Shown: positions 39,014 through 64,000 of the stretch, one piece after another
How positions within the stretch are numbered: position 1 is the stretch's first letter
Layout: every line of letters begins with the position of its first letter
Origin: Puniceibacterium sp. IMCC21224
GTDB lineage: Bacteria > Pseudomonadota > Alphaproteobacteria > Rhodobacterales > Rhodobacteraceae
Assembly (NCBI RefSeq): GCF_001038505.1
Contig: NZ_LDPY01000001.1
Location: 434,001 to 498,000, forward strand
Direction: 5' to 3'
DNA length: 64,000 nucleotides
Translations under genes and position numbers: made by a program
Notes under the pieces: model-generated
Databases searched by the model: none
What the model was told of the DNA's origin: nothing
The model's input: only the letters and a program-made list of their open reading frames with translations

Positions 39014-39022
39014 GGGCATCAC

Positions 39023-40762: not shown

Positions 40763-40771
40763 GTCGTCCGT

Positions 40772-41572: not shown

Positions 41573-41574
41573 CT

Positions 41575-42705
41575 CTAGACCCCCAGCTGCGCGAAAAAGA
41601 TCGAAAACACGGCGTCCGCGACGATCACGGTGAAAATCGCTGTCACCACGGCGTTTGATGTCATCCGCCCCAGCGATTCCGCGTTGCTGCCAACCTGCAT
41701 GCCGGCGTGGCAGCCCACGACGCCGATAATGACAGCAAAGAATGGCGCCTTGACCATGCCGACGACGACATGGCCGATATCCGTCCCCTCAACCAACCGG
41801 GTGACGAACATCGCTGGCGAAATGCCGAGGTCGATCCAGGCCATCAGCCCGCCCCCGATCAGCCCCATCAGATTTGCGACCAGTCCCAGGATCGGCAGCA
41901 TCAGCAGCAGCGCCAGAATCCGCGGCACAAACAGCACCATCGCGGGATCAAGGCCAAGGGTGCGCATGGCGTCGATCTCTTCGCGCATTTTCATCGACCC
42001 GATCGCGGCGGTAAAGGCAGACGCGGTGCGCCCGGCCACGATGATCGAGGTCAGCAAAATCCCCAATTCCCGCAGGATTGATACCGCAATCAGGTCGACG
42101 ACAAAAACTTCGGCTCCGAACTGGCGCAACTGGGTTGACCCCTGAAAGGCCAGCACCACACCGATCAGGAACGACATCAGCGCGACGATCGGCACGGCGC
42201 GCACGCCAACCTCGTCGCAATGATGTACCAATGCGGTCAGTCGAAATTCGCGCGGGTGACGGATGGCGCGGGCGATCCGGGCGAGGAACAGCCCAAGATA
42301 GCCAGTGAGGTCGAGAACAAAATTCGCCCCCTCCATGACGCGTCGCCCCACCCCCTCGACCAGATCGGTCAGGCTGCGGCGCGGCGCGGTACGGGTTTCG
42401 GCCTCAGGCATTGTATCGCTGATCGTGACCAGCAAGCTTTCGACGCCGGGGCTTGCGCCTTTGATCGTCAGATTTTGTCCTGCTGCTTCAAGACGCTGGC
42501 GCAGACGTGTCAGCGCCCATGCGCCAGACGTATCGAGGTGGCTGACCTCACTCAGATCGACGGTGGCCGCCTGATCAGCGCTGATTGTATCCAGCGTTTG
42601 CACCAGGTTGGTCACATGCGCGATGGTGATCGCCCCGCGCAGGGTGACATGCGGGCCGTCCGCACCGGGCAGAACGTCGATCAGGGGAGGAGACTTGACG
42701 AGCAT
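41575..42705 (-). CDS. MlaE-like permease with fused N-terminal STAS domain
   Basis: The N-terminal 110 residues form a STAS (MlaB-like) domain with VTLRGAITIAHVTNLVQTL and TVDLSEVSHLDTSGAWAL. The rest is the MlaE permease with HCDEVGVRAVPIVALMSFLIGVVLAFQ, AGRTASAFTAAIGSMKMREEIDAMRTLGLDP and five or six membrane segments. In E. coli MlaB is a separate protein; here it is fused, which is usual in alphaproteobacteria. ATG 42705 was chosen; an ATG at 42753 would add 16 residues without homology, and neither has a strong ribosome binding site. It is the first gene of the operon, divergent from the MscS gene. Confidence 0.9.
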   Translation of the reverse strand: MLVKSPPLIDVLPGADGPHVTLRGAITIAHVTNLVQTLDTISADQAATVDLSEVSHLDTSGAWALTRLRQRLEAAGQNLTIKGASPGVESLLVTISDTMPEAETRTAPRRSLTDLVEGVGRRVMEGANFVLDLTGYLGLFLARIARAIRHPREFRLTALVHHCDEVGVRAVPIVALMSFLIGVVLAFQGSTQLRQFGAEVFVVDLIAVSILRELGILLTSIIVAGRTASAFTAAIGSMKMREEIDAMRTLGLDPAMVLFVPRILALLLMLPILGLVANLMGLIGGGLMAWIDLGISPAMFVTRLVEGTDIGHVVVGMVKAPFFAVIIGVVGCHAGMQVGSNAESLGRMTSNAVVTAIFTVIVADAVFSIFFAQLGV

Positions 42706-42882
42706 GTGCGGGCATGCACCCTTACCAGCGAACCATTCGGGCCGGGTTACCATGGCTTGCGCGGAATGATAAGGCGCGTTAACCGGCGCCGGTCCATTCT
42801 GGGCGACGACGAGCGGGGAACAGAACCCTAGCGCTATGCGTTGGACAAAAAGTGCGCGAACCAGCGCAAAAGTGAGGCATGT

Positions 42883-45390: not shown

Positions 45391-45407
45391 ATGATCTGAA
45401 AGATCAT
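45391..45407. promoter_or_regulatory. Palindrome before the secreted RTX protein gene
   Basis: ATGATCTGAAAGATCAT has perfect 7-base arms around GAA and ends 18 bases before the start codon. GATCATTG occurs again at 45361-45368, so part of the element is repeated. Its place fits an operator or an mRNA hairpin near the ribosome binding site. Confidence 0.4.
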
Positions 45408-45424
45408 TGTTCGGGAACAGTATT

Positions 45425-48385: not shown

Positions 48386-49619
48386 CAATCGGGTCCGGCG
48401 ACGGCGCGGCAGAAACCCGCGCCGCTTCGATTTCGGACACCAGCGTTTCTGCCCCCAGCGCAGACCGGAAATGTGCCACCACATGTGCGCGCCCGGCGGC
48501 GGCCAGCTGTACGGCAAGATCGCTGTCATGCACCAGATCGCGGATGGCATGGGCCAGCGTTTGCGGGTCTTTCGGGGGGACAAGTCGCCCGGTACGACCG
48601 TCGGTGATCAGCTCGCGTACACCACCGGCGTCGGTGCCGATGGTGGGCACACCACAGGCCATCGCCTCCATATACGCGACGCCCAGCGGCTCGTGCCAGC
48701 TGGCCAGCACAAAGACGTGGGCGTTCAGCAGCTTTTGCCGTACCGCGCTGGCGTCAATTGCGCCCAGCAGTTTGACGTGGTCGCGCAGATGCAGACGTTT
48801 CAGTTCCGCCTCCAGAACCTTGCGATATCCGGCGCCGCCGGCATCGTCCTCGCCCGCGATCTCAAGGCGCACATCGACGCCCTGATCCAGCAGCAACCGG
48901 ACGGCGGTCATCAGATCCTGATGCCCCTTGACCACATTCAGCCGCGCGCAAGAGAATAGCCGCATCGGAGTGCCGTGGGGCGCAGGCTGGTAGGGCGTGT
49001 CACGGTGCAGAATGTCGGTGTCGACCCCCATGGGCCGGATCACGATGCGCTCGGGCAGAAAGCCCGCCAGTTCTTCACGGACCTCTGCCTCAAGCTTGCG
49101 GGTGATGATGGTGGCAAAGGCGGCGTCGGCCCATTTGAAACGCTGCCCCGGCCCATAATCCGACAGCGGCCCGTGCAGGGTCAGCGAATAGGGTGGGCCG
49201 CCCATCTTGTGCGCGAGCGCTGCGATCAGCGCCGCGCGGCCACAGGAATGCACATGGATATGGTCAAGCTGTTCGGCGTGGGCATGGCGCACAAGCTGCT
49301 CTGCCGCCGAAAGTGTCAGCACGATATCCCGCGCGAAACCCGCGCCGTGTTGCGCCATCCACAGTGGCAATCCGCGCGGCAGCAGACGGCCCGCAGCAGT
49401 CAGCGCCAGCAGCGGTTGTACCATGCCCAGATAAGTGGTGCGGGCCATCGCCTCTTGCGACCAGTCGTGCGCAATCAGCCCCGGCGGCGGCACGCGCGTC
49501 GAGATCAGGTCGATATGATGCCCCATCTGTTCGAGCGCGAGAACCTCGCGCCAGAAAAAGATATGGGTCTGCCCCGGAAATTGGGGCACAAGATATCCGA
49601 TCCGCAAATTCTGCGACAC
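48363..49619 (-). CDS. Glycosyltransferase family 4 (GT-B), exopolysaccharide type
   Basis: The 418-residue GT-B enzyme has an N-terminal half starting LRIGYLVPQFPGQTHIFFWREVLALEQMG and IHVHSCGRAALIAALAH in the acceptor domain. Its C-terminal half has SCARLNVVKGHQDLM and the donor-site E-x7-E motif (HEPLGVAYMEAMACG), with GTDAGGVRELITDG after it. It probably adds a sugar from a nucleotide donor to a lipid-linked or secondary-metabolite acceptor on the cytoplasmic face of the membrane. The start is GTG 49619 with AAAGG six bases upstream. It is the only minus-strand gene in the 45-64 kb region. Confidence 0.9.
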   Translation of the reverse strand: MSQNLRIGYLVPQFPGQTHIFFWREVLALEQMGHHIDLISTRVPPPGLIAHDWSQEAMARTTYLGMVQPLLALTAAGRLLPRGLPLWMAQHGAGFARDIVLTLSAAEQLVRHAHAEQLDHIHVHSCGRAALIAALAHKMGGPPYSLTLHGPLSDYGPGQRFKWADAAFATIITRKLEAEVREELAGFLPERIVIRPMGVDTDILHRDTPYQPAPHGTPMRLFSCARLNVVKGHQDLMTAVRLLLDQGVDVRLEIAGEDDAGGAGYRKVLEAELKRLHLRDHVKLLGAIDASAVRQKLLNAHVFVLASWHEPLGVAYMEAMACGVPTIGTDAGGVRELITDGRTGRLVPPKDPQTLAHAIRDLVHDSDLAVQLAAAGRAHVVAHFRSALGAETLVSEIEAARVSAAPSPDPIVTGRQAS

Positions 49620-49748: not shown

Positions 49749-50630
49749 GTGGCTGCTTTGGTACGATTTATAGCGGAAAGCGGGGCTGGCGCGGCATGTG
49801 TGCTTAGCGTTCTTATCCCCGCCAGCAATGAATCCGCGCTGATTGGCGGATGCCTTGATGCTGTACTGGCGTCCGTCTGGACACGTCCGGGGGCGGTGCA
49901 GGTGTTGGTCATTGCCAATGGCTGCGGCGACGACACCGCCGACGTCGCGTGCCACAGGCTGGATGCCTTTGCCGCGCGGGGCTGGCGGTTGGACGTGATC
50001 GAGCGGGCAGCGGGCGGCAAGTTGGCCGCGCTGAACGCCGGTGATTTGGCCGCCGAGGCAGAGAGCCGGGTCTATCTCGACGCTGATGTGACAGTCAGCC
50101 CTGAGCTGATGATGCAGCTATACGATGTGCTGGATGTGGAATCGCCGCGCTATGCCAGCGGACGGTTGCGCATCACAGTGCCCGACAATTGGGTCAGCCG
50201 GGCCTACGCGAGGATTTACCGGCAGGTGCCCTTTATGACGCACGGAGTTCCGGGATGCGGGCTGTTTGCTGTGAACGCAGTGGGGCGGGCACGTTGGGGG
50301 GATTTTCCAGATATCATTTCGGACGATACCTATGTGCGGCTGAACTTTGCACCAAGGGAACGCGTGGCGGTTGATGCCGCGTACGACTGGCCGGTGGTCA
50401 AGGGGCTGCGCAACCTGATACGTGTGCGGCGGCGGCAGGATATCGGGGTAACGGAATTGCGCGAACACTATCCTGACCTCATGCGCAACGAAGGCAAGCC
50501 GCCGTTTCCGACGACCCGCAAACTGGCCATGGCGCTGCGTGATCCGCTGGGGTTTGCGGTCTATTGTGGGGTTGCGCTGGCGGTGCGGCTGACGCCGGGC
50601 ATCGCGGCGGGTTGGAGCAGGGGGCGATGA
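49749..50630 (+). CDS. Glycosyltransferase family 2
   Basis: The 293-residue GT-A enzyme has LSVLIPASNESALIGGCLDAVLAS, VIANGCGDDT, AAGGKLAALNAGD and the metal-binding DxD as VYLDADVTV. Next comes GCGLFAVNAVGRARW with the acceptor loop, then ISDDTYVRLNF (catalytic base region). A C-terminal hydrophobic segment may tether it to the membrane. The start is uncertain: GTG 49749 or GTG 49800 are both possible and neither has a clear ribosome binding site. It is coupled by ATGA to the flippase gene. Upstream, ACACCA-AGTC-TGGTGT at 49718-49733 is a short perfect inverted repeat. Confidence 0.85.
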   Translation: MAALVRFIAESGAGAACVLSVLIPASNESALIGGCLDAVLASVWTRPGAVQVLVIANGCGDDTADVACHRLDAFAARGWRLDVIERAAGGKLAALNAGDLAAEAESRVYLDADVTVSPELMMQLYDVLDVESPRYASGRLRITVPDNWVSRAYARIYRQVPFMTHGVPGCGLFAVNAVGRARWGDFPDIISDDTYVRLNFAPRERVAVDAAYDWPVVKGLRNLIRVRRRQDIGVTELREHYPDLMRNEGKPPFPTTRKLAMALRDPLGFAVYCGVALAVRLTPGIAAGWSRGR

Positions 50631-51994
50631 TCCTCGCCCTCCCTCATCGGTTGCAAGGCGCGTCGCTAACTGCGCGGGCGCTGCGATCCGCGTTGCTGAC
50701 GATGGGTGGTTTTGGGTTCAGCCAGATCGTCCGGTTGGCGTCGAACCTGCTGCTGACCCGGCTGCTGTTCCCCGAAGCGTTCGGCATGATGGCGCTGGTG
50801 CTGGTGTTCCTTCAGGGGCTAGCGATGTTTTCCGACGTCGGCGTCGCCCCCGCGATCCTGCAAAGCAAGCGCGGCGACGATCCCGATTTCCTGAATACGG
50901 CCTGGAGCATTCAGGTGATGCGTGGCCTTGGCCTGTGGCTGGCGGCTTGTCTCTGCGCCTGGCCAATGGCGGCGTTTTATGGCGAACCGCAGTTGCTGCA
51001 TCTTTTGCCGGTGGCCAGCCTGACGCTGGTGATCGCCGGGTTCAATCCAACACGTCTGGACACGGCGAACCGGCATCTGATGTTGGGCCGGGTCACGGTG
51101 CTGGATGTGTTCGTCCAGCTGTCGGGAATCCTCAGCGCGGTGCTGATTGCCTGGGTCACTGGGTCCGTCTGGGCGCTGGTCATCAGCGGCATTGTTAGCG
51201 GGTTGATGCAACTGACGCTTTATACCCGATTCCTGCCGGGTCAGCACAACCGCTTTCGCTGGGAACCAGAGGCCGCGTCAGAGCTGATCAATTTCGGCAA
51301 ATGGATCTTTTTGTCGACGGTTTGCGGGTTCCTGTTCAGTCAGGGCGACAAGATTATCATCGGGAAATACCTTCCGCTTGACCTGTTCGGGGTCTACAAT
51401 ATCGGCTTTTTCCTAGCATCTTTTCCTATGCTTCTGGGCGGCATGGTCACCCGCAAGGTGCTGATCCCGATCTACCGTGAATGCCCACCGACCGATAGCC
51501 GCGCCAATTTCCTGCGGCTGCGCAAGATGCGCTGTCTGGTGACGGGATCGCTGCTGATCCTTGTGGGCATCTTTGCGGCGCTGGGCGTCTGGCTGGTCAA
51601 TCTGATGTATGATCCACGGTATGCGGCGGCCGGGGCGATTGTGGTGCTGATCGGCTGTATGCAAATCCCGCAAATCATCGTGCTGACCTATGATCAGGCG
51701 GCGCTGGCGGCGGGCGATTCCAGACGGTTTTTTGTTCTGGCTGTGGCGCGGGCTGTGTTCATGGTGGGCTGTCTGCTGCTGGGGCTGGAACTGGCAGGTC
51801 TGATTGGCGCGTTGCTGGCGCAGGGGGTGGCGATCCTGCTGGCCTATCCAGTTGTGGTGTGGCTGTCGCGGAGGATGGGGGCGTGGGACGGGCTGCATGA
51901 CGCTGGCTTTGCCCTTGTCGGGGCGGCAATTGCGGCCATGGCGCTGTGGCTGAACTGGGGTGCAATTGTGGCGCTGGCCGGGGCCGGGACCTGA
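50627..51994 (+). CDS. Oligosaccharide flippase (Wzx-like, MATE/MOP superfamily)
   Basis: The protein of about 455 residues has twelve or more hydrophobic segments. The N-terminal signature ALRSALLTMGGFGFSQIVRLASNLLLTRLLFPEAFGMMALVLVF (in outline) is typical of the lipopolysaccharide biosynthesis/Wzx group, and GKWIFLSTVCGFLFSQGDKIIIGKYL follows in the middle. Such proteins flip lipid-linked glycans, or sometimes glycosylated metabolites, to the periplasmic side. The start overlaps the GT2 stop by ATGA. The 183 bases after it contain the PKS control region. Confidence 0.9.
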   Translation: MILALPHRLQGASLTARALRSALLTMGGFGFSQIVRLASNLLLTRLLFPEAFGMMALVLVFLQGLAMFSDVGVAPAILQSKRGDDPDFLNTAWSIQVMRGLGLWLAACLCAWPMAAFYGEPQLLHLLPVASLTLVIAGFNPTRLDTANRHLMLGRVTVLDVFVQLSGILSAVLIAWVTGSVWALVISGIVSGLMQLTLYTRFLPGQHNRFRWEPEAASELINFGKWIFLSTVCGFLFSQGDKIIIGKYLPLDLFGVYNIGFFLASFPMLLGGMVTRKVLIPIYRECPPTDSRANFLRLRKMRCLVTGSLLILVGIFAALGVWLVNLMYDPRYAAAGAIVVLIGCMQIPQIIVLTYDQAALAAGDSRRFFVLAVARAVFMVGCLLLGLELAGLIGALLAQGVAILLAYPVVVWLSRRMGAWDGLHDAGFALVGAAIAAMALWLNWGAIVALAGAGT

Positions 51995-52177: not shown

Positions 52178-55100
52178 ATGAATAGTCAGAATCACTTATC
52201 CAGCGACAGCGATATTGCGATTGTCGGTATGGCGGCCCACCTTCCGGGGGCCGGTACAATTGCAGAATATTGGCGCAACTTGCGCGATGGTGTATCGTCG
52301 ATCCGCCATCTGTCCGAAGATGCGCTGCGTGACGCAGGCGAAACCCCCGGCCTGATCCGGCACAAGAATTATGTGCCTTACGCCGCGCCGCTCGATGGGT
52401 TCGAAATGTTCGACGCGGATTTCTTTGGGTTCAGCCCCAAAGAGGCGGCGATCATGGATCCGCAGCACCGGCAATTCCTTGAGACCGCTTGGGAGGCGTT
52501 CGAGAGCGCGGGCCACGTACCTGAGGGTTTCGATGGCCAGATCGGTGTTTACGCGGGCTGCGGCATGGGCAGCTATTTCTATTTCAACGTCTGCTCGAAT
52601 CCGGATCTGGTCGCGAACACCGGCATGTTCCTGTTGCGCCACACCGGCAACGACAAAGATTTCATGACGACGCGGGCAAGCCATGTATTCGATCTGACGG
52701 GGCCGTCGATCAACCTGCAAACCGCGTGTTCGACCTCACTCGTGGCGACGCATTATGCCTGTCAGGCGTTGCTGAATGGCGAATGCGATATGGCGCTGGC
52801 AGGCGGTGCCACGATCGAGTTGCCACAGGGACGCGGCTATCTGTTCAAAGAGAATGAGATTCTGTCGCCGGATGGTCAGTGCCATGCCTTTGATCATCGG
52901 GCGCAGGGAACAGTATTCGGGTCAGGCGCGGGTGTCGTTGTGCTGCGACGGCTGGCAGATGCTGTGGCGGATGGCGACCATATCTGGGCGGTGATCAAAG
53001 GCTCGGCTGTCAACAACGACGGTGCGGCCAAGGCGGGCTATCTCGCTCCTTCGGTTGACGGTCAGGCACAGGCCATTGCCGAGGCGCAGGCGGTTGCCGG
53101 CATCACGGCGGACACGGTCGGCTATGTGGAATGCCACGGCACCGGAACCTATCTGGGCGACCCTATCGAAGTCGCCGCGCTGACACAGGCGTTTTCGCAA
53201 ACCACTGACGCGAGGGGATTTTGTCGCATCGGATCGGTCAAGACCAATATCGGCCACCTCGATACGGCGGCGGGTGTGGCGTCGCTGATCAAGGCCGGGC
53301 TGGCGCTGCACAACCGGCAGATGCCGCCCAGCCTTGGGTATGAGGCAACAAATCCGGCGATTGATTTCGAGGCGTCACCGTTTCGCGTCAACGACCGGCT
53401 CACCGACTGGCCAGCGGGGGCATCGCCGCGCCGGGCCGGGGTGAATTCGCTGGGTGTCGGCGGCACCAACGCGCATGTGGTATTGGAAGAGGCGCCCGAA
53501 CGCGCAGTGTCCGACGATAGTGACTGGCCGTTCCAGATCCTTACCCTGTCGGGGCGCAGTAAGGCGGCGCTGGACGACAACGCCAAACGTCTGGCCGCAC
53601 ATCTGCGCGCCAATCCGCAGCAATCGCTGGCCGACGTTGCCTTTACCCTGCGCCATGGCCGTCAGGCGTTTGAAAAGCGCCGGGTGATTGTCGCCGAGAC
53701 GTCTGGGGAGGCGGCGAAGCTGTTGGAGGAGGACACGCCGCGCCGGGTGCATTCCCACACCGCCTTGCATGCGCCCGATGTGGCATTTTTGTTCCCCGGC
53801 GGCGGTGCGCAATATGCCGGAATGGCGCGCGACTTGTACGAGACCGAGCCGGTCTTTGCCGAATGGATGGATCGCGGACTAGAGGTTCTGGCCACGATCG
53901 AGGATCGCGATATTCGGGCGCTGTGGCTGCCGGATGACGCCAACCGGGCGCAGGCCGACGCGGCGCTGACCCGGCCTTCGCTGCAACTGCCGCTGATCAT
54001 GATCAGCGAATATGCGTTGGCGCAATTGTGGATCAGTTGGGGCGTGACGCCGACGGTGCTGTCCGGGCACAGCATGGGCGAAAACACCGCCGCCTGTGTC
54101 GCCGGCGTGATGTCGTTCGAAGATTGTATCGGGCTGGTGCATCTGCGCGGACGGCTGTTTGACACGGTTCCTCAGGGGGGGATGCTGTCGGTCAGCCTGT
54201 CAGCGGACCGGTTGCAGCCGCTGCTGGGCGACGCGCTCGACCTCGGGGCGGTGAATGCCCCGGAACTTAGCGTTGCCTCGGGGCCGCAGGTCGCTCTGGA
54301 TCAGCTTGAGGCGCAGCTCAGGGCGCTGGATATTGATTGTCGGCGCATTCCCATCGACGTCGCTGCGCATTCGCGGATGTTAGAGCCGATCCTTAACGAT
54401 TTCCGTAGCTATCTACGGGCCATCGACCTGAACCCGCCGCAGATTCCTCTGACCTCGAACCGCACTGGCGCGATGATGACCGACGCGCAGGCGACGGACC
54501 CGGAGTATTGGGTCGATCATCTGCGCGGCACCGTGCATTTCGCAGATTGTATTGGCACGCTGGCACAGGACAACCGCATTTTCCTTGAGGTCGGACCAGG
54601 CAAGGCGCTGTCGGCGCTGGCGCGTCAGCATGGCGCGGTGCCAGGACAGCAGGTGCTGTCGTCGCTGCGTCACCCCGACGAGGATGTCGCCGACGATAAA
54701 TATCACCTTGAAACGCTGGGTCGCCTTTGGGCGTTGGGTGCAGAGTTCGATTGGGATCAGATCTGGGGTGACGCGCGGCGCAACCGGGTGCCGCTGCCGA
54801 CCTATGCCTTTCAGCGCGCGCCGTATTTTATTGCCCCCGGCACTGCGCAGCAGGATGGCGCATCGCATTATCTGATGCGCAGCGATGATGTTGCCGGATG
54901 GGGCTGGGCCCCGGTCTGGCGGCCCCGCTCGGCGGAACCCGAGGTTGATGTCGCTGAGGGATTGGATGAGGGCGAACCGCAGACCTGGCTCATGTTCATG
55001 GACGACGCCGGGCTGGCGCAGAGCTGCGCCAAACGGTTGCGCGGTGCCGGTCATACGGTTGTTGAATTGCGCGCGGGCGACACCTTTTCGCGGGTGTCGG

Positions 55101-58100
55101 AAGAAAGCTATGTTCTGGCGCCCGAACGTGGCCGCGAAGGCTATGATCTGCTGGTGCAGGATATGCTGTCGCGCGGTCAGGTGCCCAGTCGGATCGCGCA
55201 TTTCTGGATGGTCACGGCCGATGAAACCCACCGCCCGGGGTCAAGCTTTTTCCACCGCCTTCAGGAGCAGGGATTTTACGCGCTGCTGTTCCTTGCTCAG
55301 GTGATGGCCGAGGAAAATCTGCCGCGCCCGCTGCACATCCACATTGTGACCAATGGCGCTGCTCAGGTCCGCGACGAACCACTGCTGTGGCCCGCCAAGT
55401 CAACCATCGCGGGCCCCGCACGGGTGATTTCGCGCGAATTGCCCGGGGTCACGGTGTCGACGCTGGATATCAGCCTGCCGGTGCCGCCGTCCGCCGCGTT
55501 GTGGCGGCGCGGTACTGTGCAGGCGCAATTCAGGGCGACGCAGGATGCGCTGACCCTGCGCCTGCTCGAAGAGCTGATGTCACCCCCCGCAAACCGGATC
55601 GTCGCCCTGCGCGCTGATCGGCGGTTTGAATGTGCGCAACGCCCCGTGCCGCTGAGCGATCCGGCCCGTCCGGTGGCGCGCGACGGCACCTATCTGATCA
55701 CCGGCGGGTTTGGCGGAATCGGTCTGTCTCTGGCGCGGGATTTTGCGGCACAGGGCGCGAATCTGATTCTTGTGGCGCGGGGCGATTTACCGGCCCGCAA
55801 GGATTGGCCGGACTATCTCGCCCGGCACGCGCCGCAGGACCGTATCGCCGCCCGCATTCGCGCGGTGCAGGATTTGGAGCAGGCCGGCGGCCACGTGATG
55901 ATCGCCGCCGCCGATGTCTGCAACCTGACGCAGATGCGCGGTGTGGTTGATGCCGCTATCGACCGTTTCGGCGTGATCACTGGCGTGATCCACGCCGCGG
56001 GTGTCATCGCCGATGCGCCGCTGCAAACCAAATCCCCGGCATCGATCGAGGATGTGTTCACGCCCAAGATCCACGGGACCCAGGTGCTCGACCAGCTGTT
56101 CCCTGACGGGACGCTGGAATGGATGGTGCTGTTTGCCTCATCCTCGACCGTTACGGCACCAGCGGGGCAGGTCGACTATGTGGCTGCCAACGAATATCTC
56201 AACGCCTACGCCCGGTCGCGCCGGGGTGGGCAGACCCGCGTGGTCGCTATCAACTGGGGCATCTGGAACGAAGTCGGCATGGCCGCCGAGGCAGTTGCCG
56301 CCCGCAATGGCGACGTACCGCAGGCGCCGATCGCAGAGGCGGGTGTGCCGATGTTGGACAAGGCGACGTTTGACGCTGCGGGCAACCGGCTTTTTACCGC
56401 GCGTTACGACGCCAGCGACTGGTTCATTGGCGAACATCGCACGGCGTCAGGTGATGCGCTGCTGCCCGGCACCGGATATCTGACTTTGGCGGCCCATGCG
56501 CTAAGGGCGCAGGCCGAGACGGGGCCGTTTGAGATCCGCGACCTGACATTCTTGCGGCCTCTGTACGTCCCCGAAGGCGGCGCGCGCGACATCCGTCTGC
56601 GGTTGAAACGGGGCGAGGCGGGCTATGGTTTGGATGTGCTGGGCGATGTGACCCTGAACGGCAGATCCGGCCATGCGCTGACCGCGCAGGGGCGCCTTGT
56701 TCTGGTGCCGATGGCACAGCCGCGCGCGCTGGATCTGACGGAGGTCCGGCGGCGCTGTGGTGCGGCGCAAAACGCGGCGGACGGAGGCAAACTGCGCACG
56801 GCGCAAGAGGTGCATCTGGCCTTTGGCCCGCGCTGGAGGGTGCTGGACACCCGCGCGCTGGGCGACGACGAGGGGATCGCCGATCTGTCGCTGCCGCTTG
56901 CCGCGCAGGACGACACCGGGTTCGTGCTGCATCCCGCGCTTTTGGATATAGCGACCGGTTGGGCGATGGATCTGATTGACGGCTATCGCCCGGACCATTT
57001 GTGGGTGCCGGTGTCCTATGCCCGTGTCCGGGTCCACCATCCCCTGCCTGCGCGCATCGTGAGTTGGGTGCGCAATGCCGGCGACAATCAGGGTTCCGGT
57101 GAAACAGCGAGCTTTGATGTGACGCTGTGTGCGCCAGACGGTACGGTCTGTGTCGAAATCGACGGCTTTTCGATCCGGCGGCTAGAGGACGCGCATGTGT
57201 TGTCAGCCGCGCCGCGACTGACCAAAGCCGAGGTTGAGTTCGACGTCCCCCAAGATGGCGTCAGCCAGCCACTGTCCCCGGCCGAAGAGCGCCTGCACCA
57301 TAACCTGTCGCAAGGCATCCTGCCCGCCGAAGGGGTCGCGGCGTTCCACCGCGCGCTGGGTTTGGGCCTGCCGCAGGTGGCGGTGTCTTCGATGAACCTT
57401 GATGCGTTGACTGCGCAGACAGCGGCCAGCACGGCCAAGGTGTCAGACGGCCAGACATTTGACCGCCCTCAGCTTGACGGTGACTATGTTGCGCCCGAAA
57501 CGGATATCGAACGCACACTCGCCGGGTTTTGGCAGGATCTTCTGGGCGTGTCCGCGCCCGGAGTCGAGGACAGTTTTTTTGATCTGGGTGGGCATTCCCT
57601 GATTGCCGTGCGCCTGTTTTCTATGGTGAAAAAGGCCTACCGGATCGAATTCCCGATCTCGGTCCTGTTCGAGGCGCCGACAATCCGTAAATGTGCCGCG
57701 CTGATCGCCGAACAAACCGGCCTGAATGACGCCACCACAAGCGACGCGCCGACCCGGTCGCGCGGACCCGAACGGCGGTTCAAACATCTGGTCGCCATGC
57801 ACGATGGCGAGGGGGGGCCGCGTACCCCGTTTTTCCTGGTGGCCGGCATGTTCGGCAACGTGTTGAACCTGCGCCATCTGGCACATCTTTTGGGGGCAGA
57901 CCGACCGTTTTATGGATTGCAGGCGCGCGGCCTTTACGGCGACGAGTCGCCGCATGATGATCTGCCCCAGATGGCGCGCGACTACATCGCCGAGATGAAG
58001 CAGGTTCAACCGCAGGGGCCTTATCTGCTGGGTGGCTTTTCGGGTGGTGGGATTACCGCCTATGAGATCGCGCAGCAATTGCGCGCGATGGGGGACGAGG

Positions 58101-58648
58101 TGGCGATGATTGTGCTGCTTGATACGCCGCTGCCGCAACGCCGGCCCCTGACGCGCCGCGACCGTCTGCTGATTCAAGTGCACGAGGTGCGGCGCAAGGG
58201 ATTGCGGTATCCGCTGATCTGGGCGCGCAATCGTATCGCCTGGGAAATCGCCAAGCGGCGTGGCGGGGTCGAACCCACTGTAACCGAAGCTGCGTTCCAC
58301 AATGCCGAGATCGAGGCCGCGTTCCTGCGCGCCGTCGACGCCTATCGGATGCGACCCTGGGATGCGCCGATTGCGCTGTTCCGGCCACCGCAGCATGGCC
58401 GTTGGACGGTGTCGGGCGGCCAAATGGTCGACAGCCAGCGGGCTTATGTCTTTCCGGACAATGACTGGGGGCAATACACACCGCAGATCGCGGTGTTCGA
58501 GGTGCCGGGCGATCACGATTCCATGGTGCTTGAGCCGAATGTTCGCGTCCTTGCGGGGTTGATGAAGACCGCTATCGTGCAGGCCGAGGCATCCGCGCAT
58601 GAGCACGGGACTGTTGTTCCCTTTCCCTTAACGCAAGCGGCGGAATAG
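52178..58648 (+). CDS. Type I polyketide synthase, one module: KS-AT-KR-DH-ACP-TE
   Basis: The protein has 2156 residues. KS (about 10-440) has Cys184 in TACSTSL, His320 in HGTGT and His360 in KTNIGH. AT (about 540-830) has Ser632 in GHSMGE, and VAAH (His731) where malonyl enzymes have HAFH and methylmalonyl enzymes YASH. KR (about 905-1350) has GGFGGIG at 1176 and the Ser1321/Tyr1334 pair. DH (about 1375-1680) has His1420 before LLPGTGYL and Asp1590. A stretch at 1700-1745 (ILPAEGVAAFHRAL, GLPQVAVSS) is the usual C-terminal end of a KR. ACP has Ser1807 in LGGHS. TE (about 1885-2140) has Ser1955 in GFSGGG and His2113. It should add one ketide unit, reduce and dehydrate it, and release the product. 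DH after KR is not the usual order. The GT2 gene follows after two bases. Confidence 0.93.
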   Translation: MNSQNHLSSDSDIAIVGMAAHLPGAGTIAEYWRNLRDGVSSIRHLSEDALRDAGETPGLIRHKNYVPYAAPLDGFEMFDADFFGFSPKEAAIMDPQHRQFLETAWEAFESAGHVPEGFDGQIGVYAGCGMGSYFYFNVCSNPDLVANTGMFLLRHTGNDKDFMTTRASHVFDLTGPSINLQTACSTSLVATHYACQALLNGECDMALAGGATIELPQGRGYLFKENEILSPDGQCHAFDHRAQGTVFGSGAGVVVLRRLADAVADGDHIWAVIKGSAVNNDGAAKAGYLAPSVDGQAQAIAEAQAVAGITADTVGYVECHGTGTYLGDPIEVAALTQAFSQTTDARGFCRIGSVKTNIGHLDTAAGVASLIKAGLALHNRQMPPSLGYEATNPAIDFEASPFRVNDRLTDWPAGASPRRAGVNSLGVGGTNAHVVLEEAPERAVSDDSDWPFQILTLSGRSKAALDDNAKRLAAHLRANPQQSLADVAFTLRHGRQAFEKRRVIVAETSGEAAKLLEEDTPRRVHSHTALHAPDVAFLFPGGGAQYAGMARDLYETEPVFAEWMDRGLEVLATIEDRDIRALWLPDDANRAQADAALTRPSLQLPLIMISEYALAQLWISWGVTPTVLSGHSMGENTAACVAGVMSFEDCIGLVHLRGRLFDTVPQGGMLSVSLSADRLQPLLGDALDLGAVNAPELSVASGPQVALDQLEAQLRALDIDCRRIPIDVAAHSRMLEPILNDFRSYLRAIDLNPPQIPLTSNRTGAMMTDAQATDPEYWVDHLRGTVHFADCIGTLAQDNRIFLEVGPGKALSALARQHGAVPGQQVLSSLRHPDEDVADDKYHLETLGRLWALGAEFDWDQIWGDARRNRVPLPTYAFQRAPYFIAPGTAQQDGASHYLMRSDDVAGWGWAPVWRPRSAEPEVDVAEGLDEGEPQTWLMFMDDAGLAQSCAKRLRGAGHTVVELRAGDTFSRVSEESYVLAPERGREGYDLLVQDMLSRGQVPSRIAHFWMVTADETHRPGSSFFHRLQEQGFYALLFLAQVMAEENLPRPLHIHIVTNGAAQVRDEPLLWPAKSTIAGPARVISRELPGVTVSTLDISLPVPPSAALWRRGTVQAQFRATQDALTLRLLEELMSPPANRIVALRADRRFECAQRPVPLSDPARPVARDGTYLITGGFGGIGLSLARDFAAQGANLILVARGDLPARKDWPDYLARHAPQDRIAARIRAVQDLEQAGGHVMIAAADVCNLTQMRGVVDAAIDRFGVITGVIHAAGVIADAPLQTKSPASIEDVFTPKIHGTQVLDQLFPDGTLEWMVLFASSSTVTAPAGQVDYVAANEYLNAYARSRRGGQTRVVAINWGIWNEVGMAAEAVAARNGDVPQAPIAEAGVPMLDKATFDAAGNRLFTARYDASDWFIGEHRTASGDALLPGTGYLTLAAHALRAQAETGPFEIRDLTFLRPLYVPEGGARDIRLRLKRGEAGYGLDVLGDVTLNGRSGHALTAQGRLVLVPMAQPRALDLTEVRRRCGAAQNAADGGKLRTAQEVHLAFGPRWRVLDTRALGDDEGIADLSLPLAAQDDTGFVLHPALLDIATGWAMDLIDGYRPDHLWVPVSYARVRVHHPLPARIVSWVRNAGDNQGSGETASFDVTLCAPDGTVCVEIDGFSIRRLEDAHVLSAAPRLTKAEVEFDVPQDGVSQPLSPAEERLHHNLSQGILPAEGVAAFHRALGLGLPQVAVSSMNLDALTAQTAASTAKVSDGQTFDRPQLDGDYVAPETDIERTLAGFWQDLLGVSAPGVEDSFFDLGGHSLIAVRLFSMVKKAYRIEFPISVLFEAPTIRKCAALIAEQTGLNDATTSDAPTRSRGPERRFKHLVAMHDGEGGPRTPFFLVAGMFGNVLNLRHLAHLLGADRPFYGLQARGLYGDESPHDDLPQMARDYIAEMKQVQPQGPYLLGGFSGGGITAYEIAQQLRAMGDEVAMIVLLDTPLPQRRPLTRRDRLLIQVHEVRRKGLRYPLIWARNRIAWEIAKRRGGVEPTVTEAAFHNAEIEAAFLRAVDAYRMRPWDAPIALFRPPQHGRWTVSGGQMVDSQRAYVFPDNDWGQYTPQIAVFEVPGDHDSMVLEPNVRVLAGLMKTAIVQAEASAHEHGTVVPFPLTQAAE

Positions 58649-58650
58649 TC

Positions 58651-59685
58651 ATGCAGCAGCCGCGTCTGTTGACGGTGGTTTTGAATTACCGCACGCCTGA
58701 TATGACCCTGCGGGCGGTCGAAGCGGCGGTGCGCGAGCTCGTCGATTTGAGGGCCGAGGTGGTGGTGGTCGACAACGCGTCGGGCGACGGGTCGTTCGAA
58801 AAGCTGACGGCCGGTATCGCTCGCGCATCTTGGGGGCGTGATGTTCCGGTGCGCGTGGTGGCATCCCCGGTGAACGGCGGATTTGGGGCGGGCAATAATT
58901 TCGGCATCCGTGCCGGGCTGGCTGATGGATCGCGGCCCGACTATGTCTATATCCTGAACTCGGACGCCTTTCCTGACCCCGGGTCGATCCGTTGTCTGCT
59001 GACGCATCTGCAAACGCATCCCGATGCCGGGTTCGCGGGCAGCTATATCCATGGACCCGAGGGCGACGCCCACATCACTGCGTTTCGGTTCCCGTCGATC
59101 CTGTCCGAACTCGAAGGGTCGGCGCGCTTTGGGCCGATCAGCCGGCTGCTGCGCTACCGTGCCGTCCCGATTGGCGTGCCAAGTGTGACGGTGCGTGTTG
59201 ACTGGCTTGCCGGGGCGTCGATGTTGATGCGGATGGATGTGCTGGACGAGATTGGCCTGTTTGACGAAGAGTTTTTTCTTTATTTCGAGGAAACCGATCT
59301 GTGTCTGCGGGCGGCGCGTGCCGGACATGAGACGCATTATGTCCGTGGTTCAGAGGTCACGCATATCGGGTCTGTTTCCACCGGAATGAAAACCTGGGCG
59401 CGGATGCCGACCTATTGGTTCGACAGCCGCTGGTATTATTTTTCGCACAACCACGGACGCTTCTATGCAGCTTTGGCGACGCTGGCCCACGCCACCGGCG
59501 GGCTGCTGTGGCGGTTGCGACGGTTGGTCCAGTCCAAACCTTCCGCAGATCCGCCACAGTTTTTGCGCGATCTTCTGTTACACGATTTCAAGGCGCTGAC
59601 GGGCGCGCCGCCGGAAAAGCGACTGGCGGTTCGCGCCACGCCGGTTCGGATCGCAGCTAAGGCACGAGCGGAGCAACCAAGATGA
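58651..59685 (+). CDS. Glycosyltransferase family 2 (rhamnosyltransferase-like) between PKS and NRPS
   Basis: The 344-residue protein has TVVLNYRTPDMTLRAVEAAV, VVVVDNASGDGSFEKL, SPVNGGFGAGNNFGIRAG, YILNSDAFPDP (the DxD is NSD) and DWLAGASMLMRMDVLDEIGLFDEEFFLYFEETDLCLRA in outline. That is the WbbL/rhamnosyltransferase pattern, with ED-type catalytic residues in FEETD. It is placed two bases after the PKS stop and overlaps the NRPS start by ATGA, so translation of all three is linked. A sugar on the peptide-polyketide product is a reasonable inference. Confidence 0.9.
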   Translation: MQQPRLLTVVLNYRTPDMTLRAVEAAVRELVDLRAEVVVVDNASGDGSFEKLTAGIARASWGRDVPVRVVASPVNGGFGAGNNFGIRAGLADGSRPDYVYILNSDAFPDPGSIRCLLTHLQTHPDAGFAGSYIHGPEGDAHITAFRFPSILSELEGSARFGPISRLLRYRAVPIGVPSVTVRVDWLAGASMLMRMDVLDEIGLFDEEFFLYFEETDLCLRAARAGHETHYVRGSEVTHIGSVSTGMKTWARMPTYWFDSRWYYFSHNHGRFYAALATLAHATGGLLWRLRRLVQSKPSADPPQFLRDLLLHDFKALTGAPPEKRLAVRATPVRIAAKARAEQPR

Positions 59686-62600
59686 CCAAGTTTTCCTGCG
59701 TTGTGATGGGCAACGAATCTCTGTTGATACAATGCAGTGAAAAACTGTTGGCGGCCGGGCGTCTGCTGCGCGCGGTGATCACACGGTCCGGTGTGATTGC
59801 GGACTGGGCTGCTGCGCGCGGTCTGCCGGTGGTGGCGCCCGGACGCGAACTGGCCGCACGGCTGGGCACCGCGCTGGACGGGCAGCCCGTGGACTGGCTG
59901 CTGAGCATTGCGAACCTCGACATGGTCCCGCGCGACGTGCTTGCGTTGCCGGTGCGAGGTGCCGTGAACTTTCACGACGGTCCATTACCGCGTCACGCCG
60001 GTCTGAACGCGCCGGTCTGGGCGCTGATTGAGGGTGAAGCGCGTCACGGCATAACCTGGCACATGATCGAGGGTGGCGTGGACGAGGGGGATATCCTGGT
60101 TCAGCGCCTGTTCGACGTTTCCGACACGGATACCGCGTTGACGCTGAATACCAAATGCTTTGCCGCTGCGATCGACAGCTTCGATGATCTGATCGTGGCA
60201 CTGGCGAGCGGTGCGCCCAAACGTTCGGCGCAGGATTTGAGTCACCGCAGCTATCACGCGCGTGCGGATCGGCCGGCACTGAACGGCGGTCTGGATTTCG
60301 GCGGTCCTGCCGCGCAGGCGGAGCGGTTGGTCCGGGCGCTGGATCACGGCGGCTACTGGAATCCGCTGTGCACCGCCAAGGTCGTGGCGCGGGGGGCTGT
60401 GCTGCATATCGGCAAAGCTGTGAACGTGGCGGCTGCGGGCGCGCCGGGCGCGGTGCTGTCGGCTGATGACGATCAGATGACTGTGGCGTTTGATATCGGG
60501 GCGCTTTCGCTGTCGGGATTGCGCGACGGAACCGGGGCGACGATCCGACCCAAGGATGTTGTGGCGGTCGGCGAAGTTCTGACCATGCCCGAGCTGGAAG
60601 CGGATCTGGCGGCGTCTGATGCGTTCTGGCGCGGCGAGCTCGCCAAATTTTCCGCAACAGAGATTCCGTCCATCGGCGTGGGACAGGGCGCGATCAAGTC
60701 GCTGCCGTTGGACGGCGCTGGTGCGGGCCACTTGTTGGCGTTGGCCGCTCAGTTGGGCGAGGGAACCGTCGGCGTCGCCTATGCCCACCGCGATCTGCAA
60801 AAGCTGGCCGAAGGTGGGAACGTCTGTCCCTGGGTGCCGTTTGTGGCGGAAACGGACAAGAGCCTTGGGGCGCTTGTCGATAGCGCCGCAGCAACTCAGG
60901 AGCGTTTGCGGTCTCACACGGGGTTTGCCGCCGATTTGCTGCTGCGCGACCCCGCACTTAGGGCTATCGGGACGCCGCAGATCGGTCTGTCTGACGGTGT
61001 CGGTATGATTTCTGGTACCGCGCTGACCATGGATGTCGCGGCGCGAGAGTTGCATTACGACAGTGTCCGGCTCCCTGAAGTTTTGGCGCAGGTGATCGCC
61101 GCACGGCTGCTCCACATCGCGACGCAGCCCGCCGGGACGCCGTTGGCGGACCTACTGCTGATGCCACCGGACGAGCGTAGCCTGATGCTCGACCACTGGA
61201 ACGCCACTGCCACGGATCACGACCGCAACCAGACCATGCATCGCGCCTTTGAGGCGCAGGTCGCTCGCACCCCGGACGCCCCCGCGTTGGTGTTTGAGGC
61301 GACGACGCTTAGCTACGCCGCGCTGAACGCCCGTGCCAACCGCGCCGCGCATGTGCTGCGCGACATGGGCGTGGGGCCGGGCAAAGTGGTGGGGCTGTGT
61401 ACGCGCCGTTCGGTCGATCTGATGGTGGGGGCGCTGGCGATCCTCAAGGCCGGGGGCGCCTATCTGCCGCTCGACCCTGCCTATCCTGCCAGCCGTCTGG
61501 CGCATTTCATCAGTGACAGCGCCGCGCCGGTGATTGTCACACAGGCGGGGCTGGTTGCCGACCTGCCGCCGCATGCGGCTGAGCTGCTGGTGTTGGACAG
61601 CGATCCGCGCCTTGTTTCCGCCGCGGACACGAACCTGCCCGACACCAGCGGGCCACAGGATCTGGCCTATCTGATCTACACCAGCGGATCGACCGGCACG
61701 CCCAAGGGAGTCATGGTCGAACACCGCAACGTCGCCAATTTCTACGTCGGCATGGATCAGCGCCTGAACCACGATCCGGCTGGCACCTGGTTGGCCGTGA
61801 CAAGCCTGTCGTTTGACATTTCGGTGCTGGAACTGTTCTACGCCACCGCGCGTGGGTTCAAGGTGGTGCTGACCTCGGACGAGGATCGGGGTCTGATTTC
61901 GAACGGGCCAATGGCGACGTCAGGCGGGATGGAGTTTTCGGTCTATTACTGGGGTAATGACGATGGTGCCGGGCGCGACAAATATCGCCTATTGCTGGAG
62001 GGCGCAAAATTTGCTGATCAGCACGGCTTTTGCGCAGTCTGGACGCCCGAGCGGCATTTCCACGCCTTTGGCGGGCCCTATCCGAACCCGTCGGTGACGG
62101 GAGCGGCTGTTGCCGCAGTGACGCAGAACATCGGCGTTCGGGGCGGCAGTTGTGTCGCGCCGCTGCACCATCCCGCAAGGATTGCCGAGGAATGGGCCGT
62201 CATCGACAACCTGACAGGGGGGCGCGCGGGCATGGCCATCGCCTCTGGCTGGCAGCCCGACGATTTTGTCCTGCGTCCCGAAAACACGCCGCCCAACAAC
62301 AAGGCGGCGATGATCGACAGCATCGAAACCGTGCGCAAACTCTGGCGAGGAGAGGCGGTCGCGTTTCCAAAACAGGACGGAACCTTGCACGAGGTGATCA
62401 CGCAACCCCGCCCGGTGTCGAAAGAATTGCCGGTCTGGGTTACCACGGCGGGCAATCCCGAGACATGGAAAGAGGCGGGGCGGCTGGGCTGCAATGTGCT
62501 GACGCATCTGCTGGGTCAGACGGTTGATGAGGTTGCAGGCAAGATCACGCTGTATCATGCGGCTCTGCGCGAGGCCGGGCATGACCCGGCGCAGTTCAAG

Positions 62601-64000
62601 GTGACGCTGATGTTGCACAGCTATATCGCCGGAACTCTGGACGAGGCGCGCGAAACCGCCCGCGAACCGATGAAGGATTACCTGCGTTCGGCTGCTGGTC
62701 TGATCAAGCAATACGCCTGGGCGTTTCCGGCGTTCAAAAAGCCTGAAGGCGTGAAAAATCCGTTTGAACTCGACCTTGGATCGCTCTCGGACGAAGAGAT
62801 GGATGGAATTCTGGAATTCGCGTTTGAGCGGTATTTTAACGATTCCGGCTTGTTCGGGACCATTGATGACGCCGTGGCGCGGACTGAAGAATTGAAAAAG
62901 ATCGGCGTGACAGAAATTGCCTGCCTGATCGACTATGGCATCGACACGGATACAGTGCTGGAAGGGCTAAAGCCGCTGGCCGAGGTTCTGCGGCGTACCA
63001 ATCTGTCGACCGAACTGGCGGCGGATGATTTTTCGATCGCGGCGCAGATTGTGCGACATGATGTGACGCATCTGCAATGCACCCCGTCGATGGCGCGGAT
63101 GATCGCGATGAATGACGAGGCGCGTTTTGCCTTGTCCCGCGTGCAGCATATCATGCTGGGCGGCGAACCTTTGCCGGGTGCGCTGGTCGCGGAATTTGCA
63201 CAAATGACAAACGCCAGCCTCACCAACATGTATGGCCCGACCGAAACCACGATCTGGTCCGCGACCGAGGTGGCGCATGCCACCGATGGTGTGGTCAACA
63301 TCGGCCTGCCGATTGCCAATACGCAGTTATACGTCCTGGATGACGCCCAGCAGCCGGTGCCGCTGGGCGTGCCGGGTGAATTGTGGATCGGTGGCGAAGG
63401 CGTCACGCGGGGCTATTGGAACCGGGCCGATCTGACAGCGGAACGCTTTGTGGCGAACCCGTTTCATCCGGGGCGGATGTATCGCACCGGCGATCTGGTC
63501 CGCCGCCGCGCCGATGGCAAGATCGACTTTGTCGGTCGGGTCGATCATCAGGTCAAGCTGCGCGGTTTCCGCATTGAACTGGGCGAGATCGAGGCCGTGA
63601 TTGAAGCGCAACCTGGCATCCGCCAGGCGGTTGTTGCCGCGCGCGAGGATCAGCCGGGGGATGTTCGGCTGGTGGCCTATGTGACTTCGGATGCGACGGT
63701 GGACGAGACCGCTTTGAAAGCCGCGATGGGGGGCAGCCTGCCCGATTACATGTTGCCGTCGCGGATACTTCGGCTGGATGCATTCCCGCTGACACCGAAC
63801 AAAAAAGTGGATCGCGGTGCGTTGCCTGCACCTACCGCCATTGTGGTGCCAAAGCGGGTGCCGCGACTGAGCGCGCCGATAGCAAATGGCGCAGCCCACA
63901 GCGATGCCGCGATCGAGGTGCAGATTGCCGAAATCTGGAGCCGGGTGCTGGGCACATCGGCGATCACCGGGCGGGATAATTTCTTTGACCTTGGCGGACA
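59682..64000 (+). CDS. NRPS: formyltransferase, vestigial C, A split by luciferase-like monooxygenase, PCP (3' end outside window)
   Basis: The frame is open from ATG 59682 to the window end, 1439 codons. Residues 1-200 are a formyltransferase domain with Asn96 and His98 (NFHDGPLPRHAG) and Asp134 (GGVDEGDIL). A formyltransferase C-terminal part runs to about 285. Residues 300-510 resemble the end of a condensation domain (ending LLLMPPDERSLMLDHWNATA), but HHxxxDG is absent. The adenylation domain has A3 YTSGSTGTPKG (666-676) and A4 FDIS (711). It then breaks off for a luciferase-like flavin monooxygenase (about 750-1105, MEFSVYYWGN onward, MupA/Atu3671 type) and resumes with A5 NMYGPTE (1182), A7 YRTGDL, A8 and A10. 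A carrier domain begins, and the window ends at LGG, just before the phosphopantetheine serine. It should activate an amino acid, oxidise it, and perhaps formylate it. Confidence 0.93.
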   Translation, partial: MTKFSCVVMGNESLLIQCSEKLLAAGRLLRAVITRSGVIADWAAARGLPVVAPGRELAARLGTALDGQPVDWLLSIANLDMVPRDVLALPVRGAVNFHDGPLPRHAGLNAPVWALIEGEARHGITWHMIEGGVDEGDILVQRLFDVSDTDTALTLNTKCFAAAIDSFDDLIVALASGAPKRSAQDLSHRSYHARADRPALNGGLDFGGPAAQAERLVRALDHGGYWNPLCTAKVVARGAVLHIGKAVNVAAAGAPGAVLSADDDQMTVAFDIGALSLSGLRDGTGATIRPKDVVAVGEVLTMPELEADLAASDAFWRGELAKFSATEIPSIGVGQGAIKSLPLDGAGAGHLLALAAQLGEGTVGVAYAHRDLQKLAEGGNVCPWVPFVAETDKSLGALVDSAAATQERLRSHTGFAADLLLRDPALRAIGTPQIGLSDGVGMISGTALTMDVAARELHYDSVRLPEVLAQVIAARLLHIATQPAGTPLADLLLMPPDERSLMLDHWNATATDHDRNQTMHRAFEAQVARTPDAPALVFEATTLSYAALNARANRAAHVLRDMGVGPGKVVGLCTRRSVDLMVGALAILKAGGAYLPLDPAYPASRLAHFISDSAAPVIVTQAGLVADLPPHAAELLVLDSDPRLVSAADTNLPDTSGPQDLAYLIYTSGSTGTPKGVMVEHRNVANFYVGMDQRLNHDPAGTWLAVTSLSFDISVLELFYATARGFKVVLTSDEDRGLISNGPMATSGGMEFSVYYWGNDDGAGRDKYRLLLEGAKFADQHGFCAVWTPERHFHAFGGPYPNPSVTGAAVAAVTQNIGVRGGSCVAPLHHPARIAEEWAVIDNLTGGRAGMAIASGWQPDDFVLRPENTPPNNKAAMIDSIETVRKLWRGEAVAFPKQDGTLHEVITQPRPVSKELPVWVTTAGNPETWKEAGRLGCNVLTHLLGQTVDEVAGKITLYHAALREAGHDPAQFKVTLMLHSYIAGTLDEARETAREPMKDYLRSAAGLIKQYAWAFPAFKKPEGVKNPFELDLGSLSDEEMDGILEFAFERYFNDSGLFGTIDDAVARTEELKKIGVTEIACLIDYGIDTDTVLEGLKPLAEVLRRTNLSTELAADDFSIAAQIVRHDVTHLQCTPSMARMIAMNDEARFALSRVQHIMLGGEPLPGALVAEFAQMTNASLTNMYGPTETTIWSATEVAHATDGVVNIGLPIANTQLYVLDDAQQPVPLGVPGELWIGGEGVTRGYWNRADLTAERFVANPFHPGRMYRTGDLVRRRADGKIDFVGRVDHQVKLRGFRIELGEIEAVIEAQPGIRQAVVAAREDQPGDVRLVAYVTSDATVDETALKAAMGGSLPDYMLPSRILRLDAFPLTPNKKVDRGALPAPTAIVVPKRVPRLSAPIANGAAHSDAAIEVQIAEIWSRVLGTSAITGRDNFFDLGG

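Follow-up and report, generated by a model that had tools for sequence, protein, structure and literature searches.

A putative NRPS loading protein of Rhodobacterales combines a formyltransferase with a monooxygenase embedded in its adenylation domain

A stretch of 64,000 nucleotides from Puniceibacterium sp. IMCC21224 (contig NZ_LDPY01000001.1, positions 434,001 to 498,000; here called the window) encodes a nonribosomal peptide synthetase (NRPS) that carries, in one frame, an N-terminal formyltransferase (FT) domain and a luciferase-like monooxygenase (LLM) inserted into the adenylation (A) domain. Two uncommon NRPS features are united in what is probably one loading module, and we propose a reason for their pairing. 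We lean towards the view that the protein is the loading module of a short line of NRPS and polyketide synthase (PKS), making an N-formylated alpha-hydroxyglycine starter that is extended by the PKS. The line is widespread in Rhodobacterales, and no known product of it was found in the open-access PubMed Central (PMC) literature. Published systems are cited from parts of the sources named.

Gene and domain architecture

A single unbroken gene runs on the forward strand from position 59682, without a stop up to the window end at 64000, to a stop at 64304, 304 bases further on. The product has 1540 aa. Pfam finds Formyl_trans_N, an AMP-binding domain split in two with Bac_luciferase between the halves, AMP-binding_C, and one carrier domain. 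No thioesterase was found by Pfam in the full 1540 aa, and the open reading frame (ORF) stops after the carrier domain. The features are:

59682..64000, continuing to 64304, + strand: putative NRPS loading protein, FT-psiC-A(Gly)[LLM]-T, 1540 aa
59682..60581, + strand: formyltransferase domain, N- and C-terminal parts, residues about 1-300
60582..61196, + strand: putative condensation-domain remnant, C-terminal lobe only, without HHxxxD, residues about 301-505
61197..61922, + strand: adenylation domain, A1-A4 half, residues about 506-747
61923..62999, + strand: FMN-dependent luciferase-like monooxygenase between A4 and A5, residues about 748-1106
63000..63866, + strand: adenylation domain, A5-A10 half, residues about 1107-1395
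63909..64000, + strand: carrier (thiolation) domain, cut by the window end, residues about 1410-1480 (PF00550 on the full protein)

The carrier serine, in the motif GGHSL, lies just past the window end.

This order of FT, condensation remnant, A1-A4, LLM, A5-A10 and carrier had been proposed in the original prediction, made from the letters of the window, and it is upheld in every part, the remnant being the weakest call. The search of the full protein against Pfam and NCBIfam recovered the domains that had been named, apart from the remnant. The split AMP-binding match and the NCBIfam family TIGR04020 confirm the monooxygenase between A4 and A5, and extension past the window end completed the frame. 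The catalytic Asn, His and Asp of the FT, read as intact in the window, are kept in all 81 sequences compared, that is, the window and 80 related loci. A frameshift or assembly artefact separating the domains had been feared and is ruled out, as the gene is complete in the flanking genome and none of the 80 related loci has a stop within the best matching segment.

Distribution

The sample comprised 292 genomes of the order of the window, Rhodobacterales, with the window genome included. A query of the FT plus the condensation remnant (FT-psiC; threshold E 1e-20) matched 126 of them, and 124 after removal of two genomes with weak partial matches; the removed matches (G110, G227 and the second row of G117) had E values of 1e-21 to 1e-23 in ORFs of 305-403 aa. 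The LLM query (threshold E 1e-80) matched 125 genomes, namely the same 124 and G203, where the gene is cut off by the end of a 4843-base contig and the LLM appears without the FT. In G231, the gene is split across two contigs. The two genome sets were compared by eye, and among the listed rows of both searches all genomes were marked as belonging to the same family as the window. The architecture is common, not one-off: roughly 40% of the Rhodobacterales genomes sampled have it. A late accidental fusion of the FT or the LLM was considered and rejected, because both are found in the same 124 of 292 genomes.

In a sample of the phylum, 25 of 398 matched, ten of these through weak partial FT matches. 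All 120 listed proteins (of 2190) from a protein search contained PF00551, PF00296 and PF00501. When a distant member served as the query, 118 of the 120 proteins listed (of 1336) had all three domains and two lacked PF00551; Rhizobium, Phenylobacterium, Sneathiella, Ramlibacter and a Bryobacterales metagenome-assembled genome were among the source names. The architecture is also present in Hydrogenophaga. Where the matched proteins carry names, these are mostly automatic ones, such as MupA/Atu3671 family LLM or LLM class oxidoreductase.

Adenylation code and embedded monooxygenase

With a score of 481 bits (cut-off 244), the insert falls in TIGR04020, the LLM family of MupA and Atu3671, and it is the most conserved domain of the protein (median identity 79%). 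The OX domain of PuwE (6ket) matches it at E 1e-101, with 45% identity in the Foldseek alignment.

The specificity code was read on GrsA numbering and checked against 1amu. In the window it is DILQMGMIWK, with D712, I713 and L716 coming from the A4 half and the remainder from the A5-A10 half. Among the 81 sequences, DILQMGMIWK occurs in 48, DILQFGMIWK in 23, DILQYGMIWK in seven, DILQLGMIWK in two and DILQFGLIWK in one, so that DILQxGMIWK fits 80 and the remaining one has L for M. Six further loci all have DILQ[M/F/Y/C]GMIWK. In a survey of A domains, all four monooxygenase-bearing glycine domains carry DILQLGMIWK (PMC12283262), a code found identically in two of our 81 sequences and differing from that of the window at one position. 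The substrate of the A domain is predicted to be of the glycine type. A siderophore line of the N5-hydroxy-N5-formylornithine type was also considered and is weak, given that the code indicates glycine, not ornithine, and that the scanned neighbours include no recognisable siderophore gene.

The insert occupies the a4-a5 site, as in the myxothiazol and melithiazol synthetases. There, a flavin monooxygenase hydroxylates glycine, and the carbinolamide is then cleaved to an amide and a glyoxyl thioester; in solanimycin, the monooxygenase lies between a8 and a9, and the alpha-hydroxyglycine is retained in solanimycin B (PMC10204066). A coupling of the oxidation to amino acid loading is plausible. 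The known relatives hydroxylate glycyl residues in a synthetase-bound chain, not the adenylate (PMC10204066).

A glyoxylyl starter would also fit the insertion site, which is that of the cleaving modules, the LLM type of the monooxygenase, and an A code known from monooxygenase-bearing glycine domains. Here, the hydroxylated N-formylglycine would collapse to formamide and a glyoxylyl-S-carrier, the PKS would use the two-carbon aldehyde, and the formyl group would serve as a leaving-group device only. We consider this unlikely. A free hydroxylated glycyl group is expected, on chemical grounds, to collapse even without an FT, yet the FT catalytic residues are kept in every sequence, and such strict conservation suggests that the formyl group matters. 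Furthermore, alpha-hydroxyglycine survives in solanimycin B (PMC10204066).

Formyltransferase and condensation remnant

Structure comparison assigns the FT to the ArnA/Fmt type of fold, and its best matches in the PDB include WbkC and ArnA, which are sugar N-formyltransferases. These matches, and the position in a polysaccharide cluster, could mean that the FT formylates an amino sugar of the polysaccharide instead of carrier-bound glycine, the fusion serving only localisation. This is very unlikely. The FT is as close to Fmt, shares 40-43% identity with its counterparts in three NRPS fragments of genome G484 that also have the condensation (C) remnant, and is kept in two loci (L104 and L105) without polysaccharide matches.

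The region between the FT and the A domain (residues 301-505) is the least conserved of the protein, with a median identity of 29.5%. PF00668 matched two of 36 remnant members (best E 0.0017), and the remnant of the window was not one of them. Searched alone as a single sequence against the PDB, the window remnant retrieved no C domain and only chance-level matches (best E 0.033). A profile of the 36 members retrieved McyB from the PDB, matching the end of its C domain (E 0.0015). In a comparison with four real C domains, hhalign placed the remnant on columns 240-502 of 503, their C-terminal half (E 2e-4, probability 46). The HHxxxD motif is absent upstream of the A domain in all 81 sequences. 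The remnant appears to be without the catalytic half of a C domain, which makes the module probably a loading module. The three FT-bearing G484 fragments (L099-L101) contain the same C remnant (E 1e-19 to 1e-22); L099 and L101 extend into an A domain without LLM, and L100 stops before the A domain. With the same remnant in these fragments, FT-psiC looks like a starter cassette common to several NRPSs.

The PKS partner

Two genes directly upstream complete the conserved core:

52178..58648, + strand: one-module PKS with ketosynthase (KS), acyltransferase (AT), ketoreductase (KR), dehydratase (DH), acyl carrier (ACP) and thioesterase (TE) domains, KS-AT-KR-DH-ACP-TE, proposed partner extending the loaded unit
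58651..59685, + strand: GT2 glycosyltransferase, its stop overlapping the NRPS start (ATGA), matched in 80/80 related loci

The order in the window is PKS, GT2, NRPS, and a phosphopantetheinyl transferase gene lies downstream of the NRPS. The PKS was matched in 78 of the 80 related loci; the contigs of the other two (L015 and L043) start within about 600 bases of the GT2. It was also found in L102-L107. Key residues were compared in 81 PKSs (the window, the 74 of 80 loci with frames longer than 1900 aa, and six further loci). Those of KS, AT, KR, DH and ACP are kept in all. In the TE, 80 sequences have the serine and 79 the histidine, and the misses are gaps in L104 and L105. The KR (1170-1365) precedes the DH (1391-1674), also in the distant partner PKSs, and this is the reverse of the usual PKS order.

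In four distant loci (L102-L105), the GT2 had no match in the fetched 20 kb, and NRPS and PKS are still adjacent. This kept adjacency identifies NRPS plus PKS as the stable unit. The two genes are divergent in L102 and L103; L104 and L105 have them on one strand, with the NRPS immediately before the PKS. An intact C-A-T-TE continues the PKS in the genome that contains L105, and such an arrangement fits an order of loading, extension and release.

In genome G583 (L148:14222-19984), the partner PKS extends into C-A-T-TE with an intact HHxxxDG and the A code DTIWVGGVT (first nine positions). The PKS end in L149 is supported by tblastn, and an ORF in another frame (L149:16548-19712) has only an FkbM methyltransferase match. 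Two Hydrogenophaga loci (L040:18119-24046 and L051:18747-24752) have an extra downstream NRPS with two AMP-ligase stretches, one C domain, two carriers and a TE, and the product there may be longer.

Proposed route to the starter

In the mechanism that we propose, glycine would be adenylated and loaded on the carrier, the FT would formylate the amine of glycyl-S-carrier, and the LLM, with FMNH2 and O2, would hydroxylate the alpha carbon of N-formylglycyl-S-carrier. The KS of the PKS would accept this unit and one extender would be added, followed by reduction by the KR and dehydration by the DH. The TE would then release or transfer a small acid, either N-formylated or formamide-derived. The formyl group could substitute for the acyl chain that known glycine alpha-hydroxylating modules obtain by condensation. 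This would explain the joint occurrence of FT and LLM, and it predicts that formylation comes before hydroxylation. Action of the FT on glycyl-S-PCP (peptidyl carrier protein) is the model proposed for CongA, and carrier-bound formylation was shown in vitro for linear gramicidin (PMC4504003).

Several points weigh against this route. The sequence of the FT is nearer to Fmt and sugar N-formyltransferases than to the F domain of LgrA. The assignment of the remnant as a C domain, drawn from the hhalign alignment, one profile match and the missing HHxxxD, is weak. The order of FT before LLM is inferred, and the chemistry is read from the sequence. The AT motif of the PKS is AAHS, which matches neither the textbook malonyl nor the textbook methylmalonyl AT motif. 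The published glycine hydroxylations considered here occur in chain-receiving modules, not in loading modules (PMC10204066). Finally, the carbinolamide falls apart in myxothiazol and melithiazol, so that a retained N-formyl-alpha-hydroxyglycine may be unstable.

Relation to known systems

The single domains are known, and their combination appears to be new as far as the open-access PMC literature goes. The original prediction knew of no characterised enzyme in which FT and LLM occur together, and this stands: no description of the two in one NRPS was found in the parts covered of the Creative Commons (CC)-licensed PMC literature, nor anything there on fabrubactin/Atu3671 together with a formyltransferase. 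The initiation module of LgrA (linear gramicidin), unlike the window protein, uses valine and has neither a C remnant between F and A nor an LLM; its F domain is a distant match to the window FT. The terminal modules of myxothiazol and melithiazol, which we take to be MtaG and MelG, release the chain as a C-terminal amide and are followed by a TE, whereas the window protein, which has an FT and a PKS partner, lacks both a working C domain and a TE. Those terminal modules share with it a flavin monooxygenase at a4-a5 of the A domain, acting on glycine (PMC10204066). The window code resembles those of the monooxygenase-bearing glycine domains of the survey, which may or may not be of the myxothiazol type, their synthetases being unnamed in the part of it cited (PMC12283262). 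Module 4 of SolF (solanimycin) likewise pairs a glycine A domain with a flavin monooxygenase, giving alpha-hydroxyglycine; it differs in the a8-a9 insertion and in being an elongation module, and the cited part mentions no FT (PMC10204066). The PuwE OX domain (puwainaphycin) is of the same LLM family, but it stands on its own between PKS and NRPS modules and is proposed to hydroxylate the acyl chain (PMC4219810). In 2022, a review counted only three nonribosomal peptides with F-domain formylation (PMC8949500).

The loading modules of conglobatin (CongA) and oxazolomycin come closest on the formylating side, with an FT, a glycine A domain and a PCP starting a PKS line; the cited part mentions no A-domain monooxygenase, and an oxazole-forming cyclodehydratase is proposed to act next (PMC4504003). 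The shared arrangement of FT-A(Gly)-PCP followed by a PKS would suit an oxazole starter, in which N-formylglycine would undergo ring closure once extended, with the LLM oxidising the precursor of the ring. This is the least probable of the readings considered here, and a very improbable one. No cyclodehydratase like CongE or OzmP was recognised among the Pfam-scanned neighbours, where no search with its own sequence was made, and KR and DH are kept, while ring closure would need the ketone.

Some Roseobacter genes (Inhi_1972/Inhi_1974, SSE37_17955 and ISM_16730) probably belong to the same cluster, as likened by gene descriptions only. In P. inhibens, the PKS and NRPS genes are two locus tags apart (PMC4062626), and S. 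stellata E-37 and R. nubinhibens ISM have LLM-type NRPS genes that, like their products, were called uncharacterised (PMC9769649).

Polysaccharide setting

The window locus contains Wzx, a weak Wzz-like match, several glycosyltransferases and sugar-modifying genes, among them:

50564..51994, + strand: Wzx-type polysaccharide flippase (PF13440/PF01943)
49749..50630, + strand: GT2 glycosyltransferase of the polysaccharide cluster
48363..49619, - strand: group-1 glycosyltransferase of the polysaccharide cluster

With 21 polysaccharide proteins as queries and the core genes excluded, we compared the 80 related loci with controls, namely 40 stretches of 20 kb taken from three genomes. At least one polysaccharide category was found in 77/80 loci against 1/40 controls, and at least two in 72/80 against 0/40; the loci without a match were L034, L069 and L088. 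Eight of the 80 loci had supplied queries, and without these 69 of 72 were positive. Six of the seven Hydrogenophaga loci were positive via other genes (WecG, sugar transferase, group-1 glycosyltransferase or GT2), which indicates that the association recurs with non-homologous neighbours. The window locus is a polysaccharide cluster, and with most loci among polysaccharide genes the product may decorate a polysaccharide. What decorates or accompanies a surface polysaccharide in Rhodobacterales and Hydrogenophaga would then be either the acid or a glycoside to whose synthesis the conserved GT2 contributes.

Two points count against this link. The control is biased, with queries taken partly from the tested loci and unequal lengths compared (2016 kb for the 80 loci, 800 kb for the 40 controls). 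In addition, the distant loci L104 and L105, which supplied no query, were negative for the 21 queries; the other two distant loci, L102 and L103, were positive, but both had supplied queries.

The product could instead be a free secreted metabolite, a signal or an antibiotic, with incidental polysaccharide neighbours. NRPS/PKS lines usually yield free metabolites, and L104 and L105 keep NRPS and PKS without a GT2 match in the fetched DNA; Pfam on their neighbours gave one sugar-epimerase-type gene only, in L104. We judge this somewhat unlikely in view of the excess over the controls, of neighbours that are often non-homologous (WecG, Wza, Wzx, sugar transferase, ManC, and Wzy-like matches below the Pfam cut-off), and of the GT2 present in every related locus and overlapping the NRPS start in the window.

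A bolder reading, which we put forward tentatively, is a conserved, dedicated NRPS-PKS line whose product, an oxidised acyl group derived from N-formylglycine, is attached covalently to a surface polysaccharide; formylation would be the N-acylation that enables the LLM to hydroxylate glycine in a loading module. If the polysaccharide link is true, assembly-line chemistry is used for decorating an exported polymer, and a cryptic set of Roseobacter NRPS/PKS genes gains a test.

Further observations concern the surroundings. Beside the polysaccharide genes, window positions 45407-48385 encode a 992-aa protein with one RTX calcium-binding repeat match; it is matched in 45/80 loci, with a good match in 18. 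Past the window end (L008:16093-18201, window 68093-70201), there is a 702-aa fusion of a Gfo/Idh/MocA oxidoreductase and an NAD-dependent epimerase, with good matches in 41/80 loci. An Mla-type lipid transport operon (STAS-MlaE, ABC ATPase, MlaD and an auxiliary lipoprotein) lies at 38378-42753.

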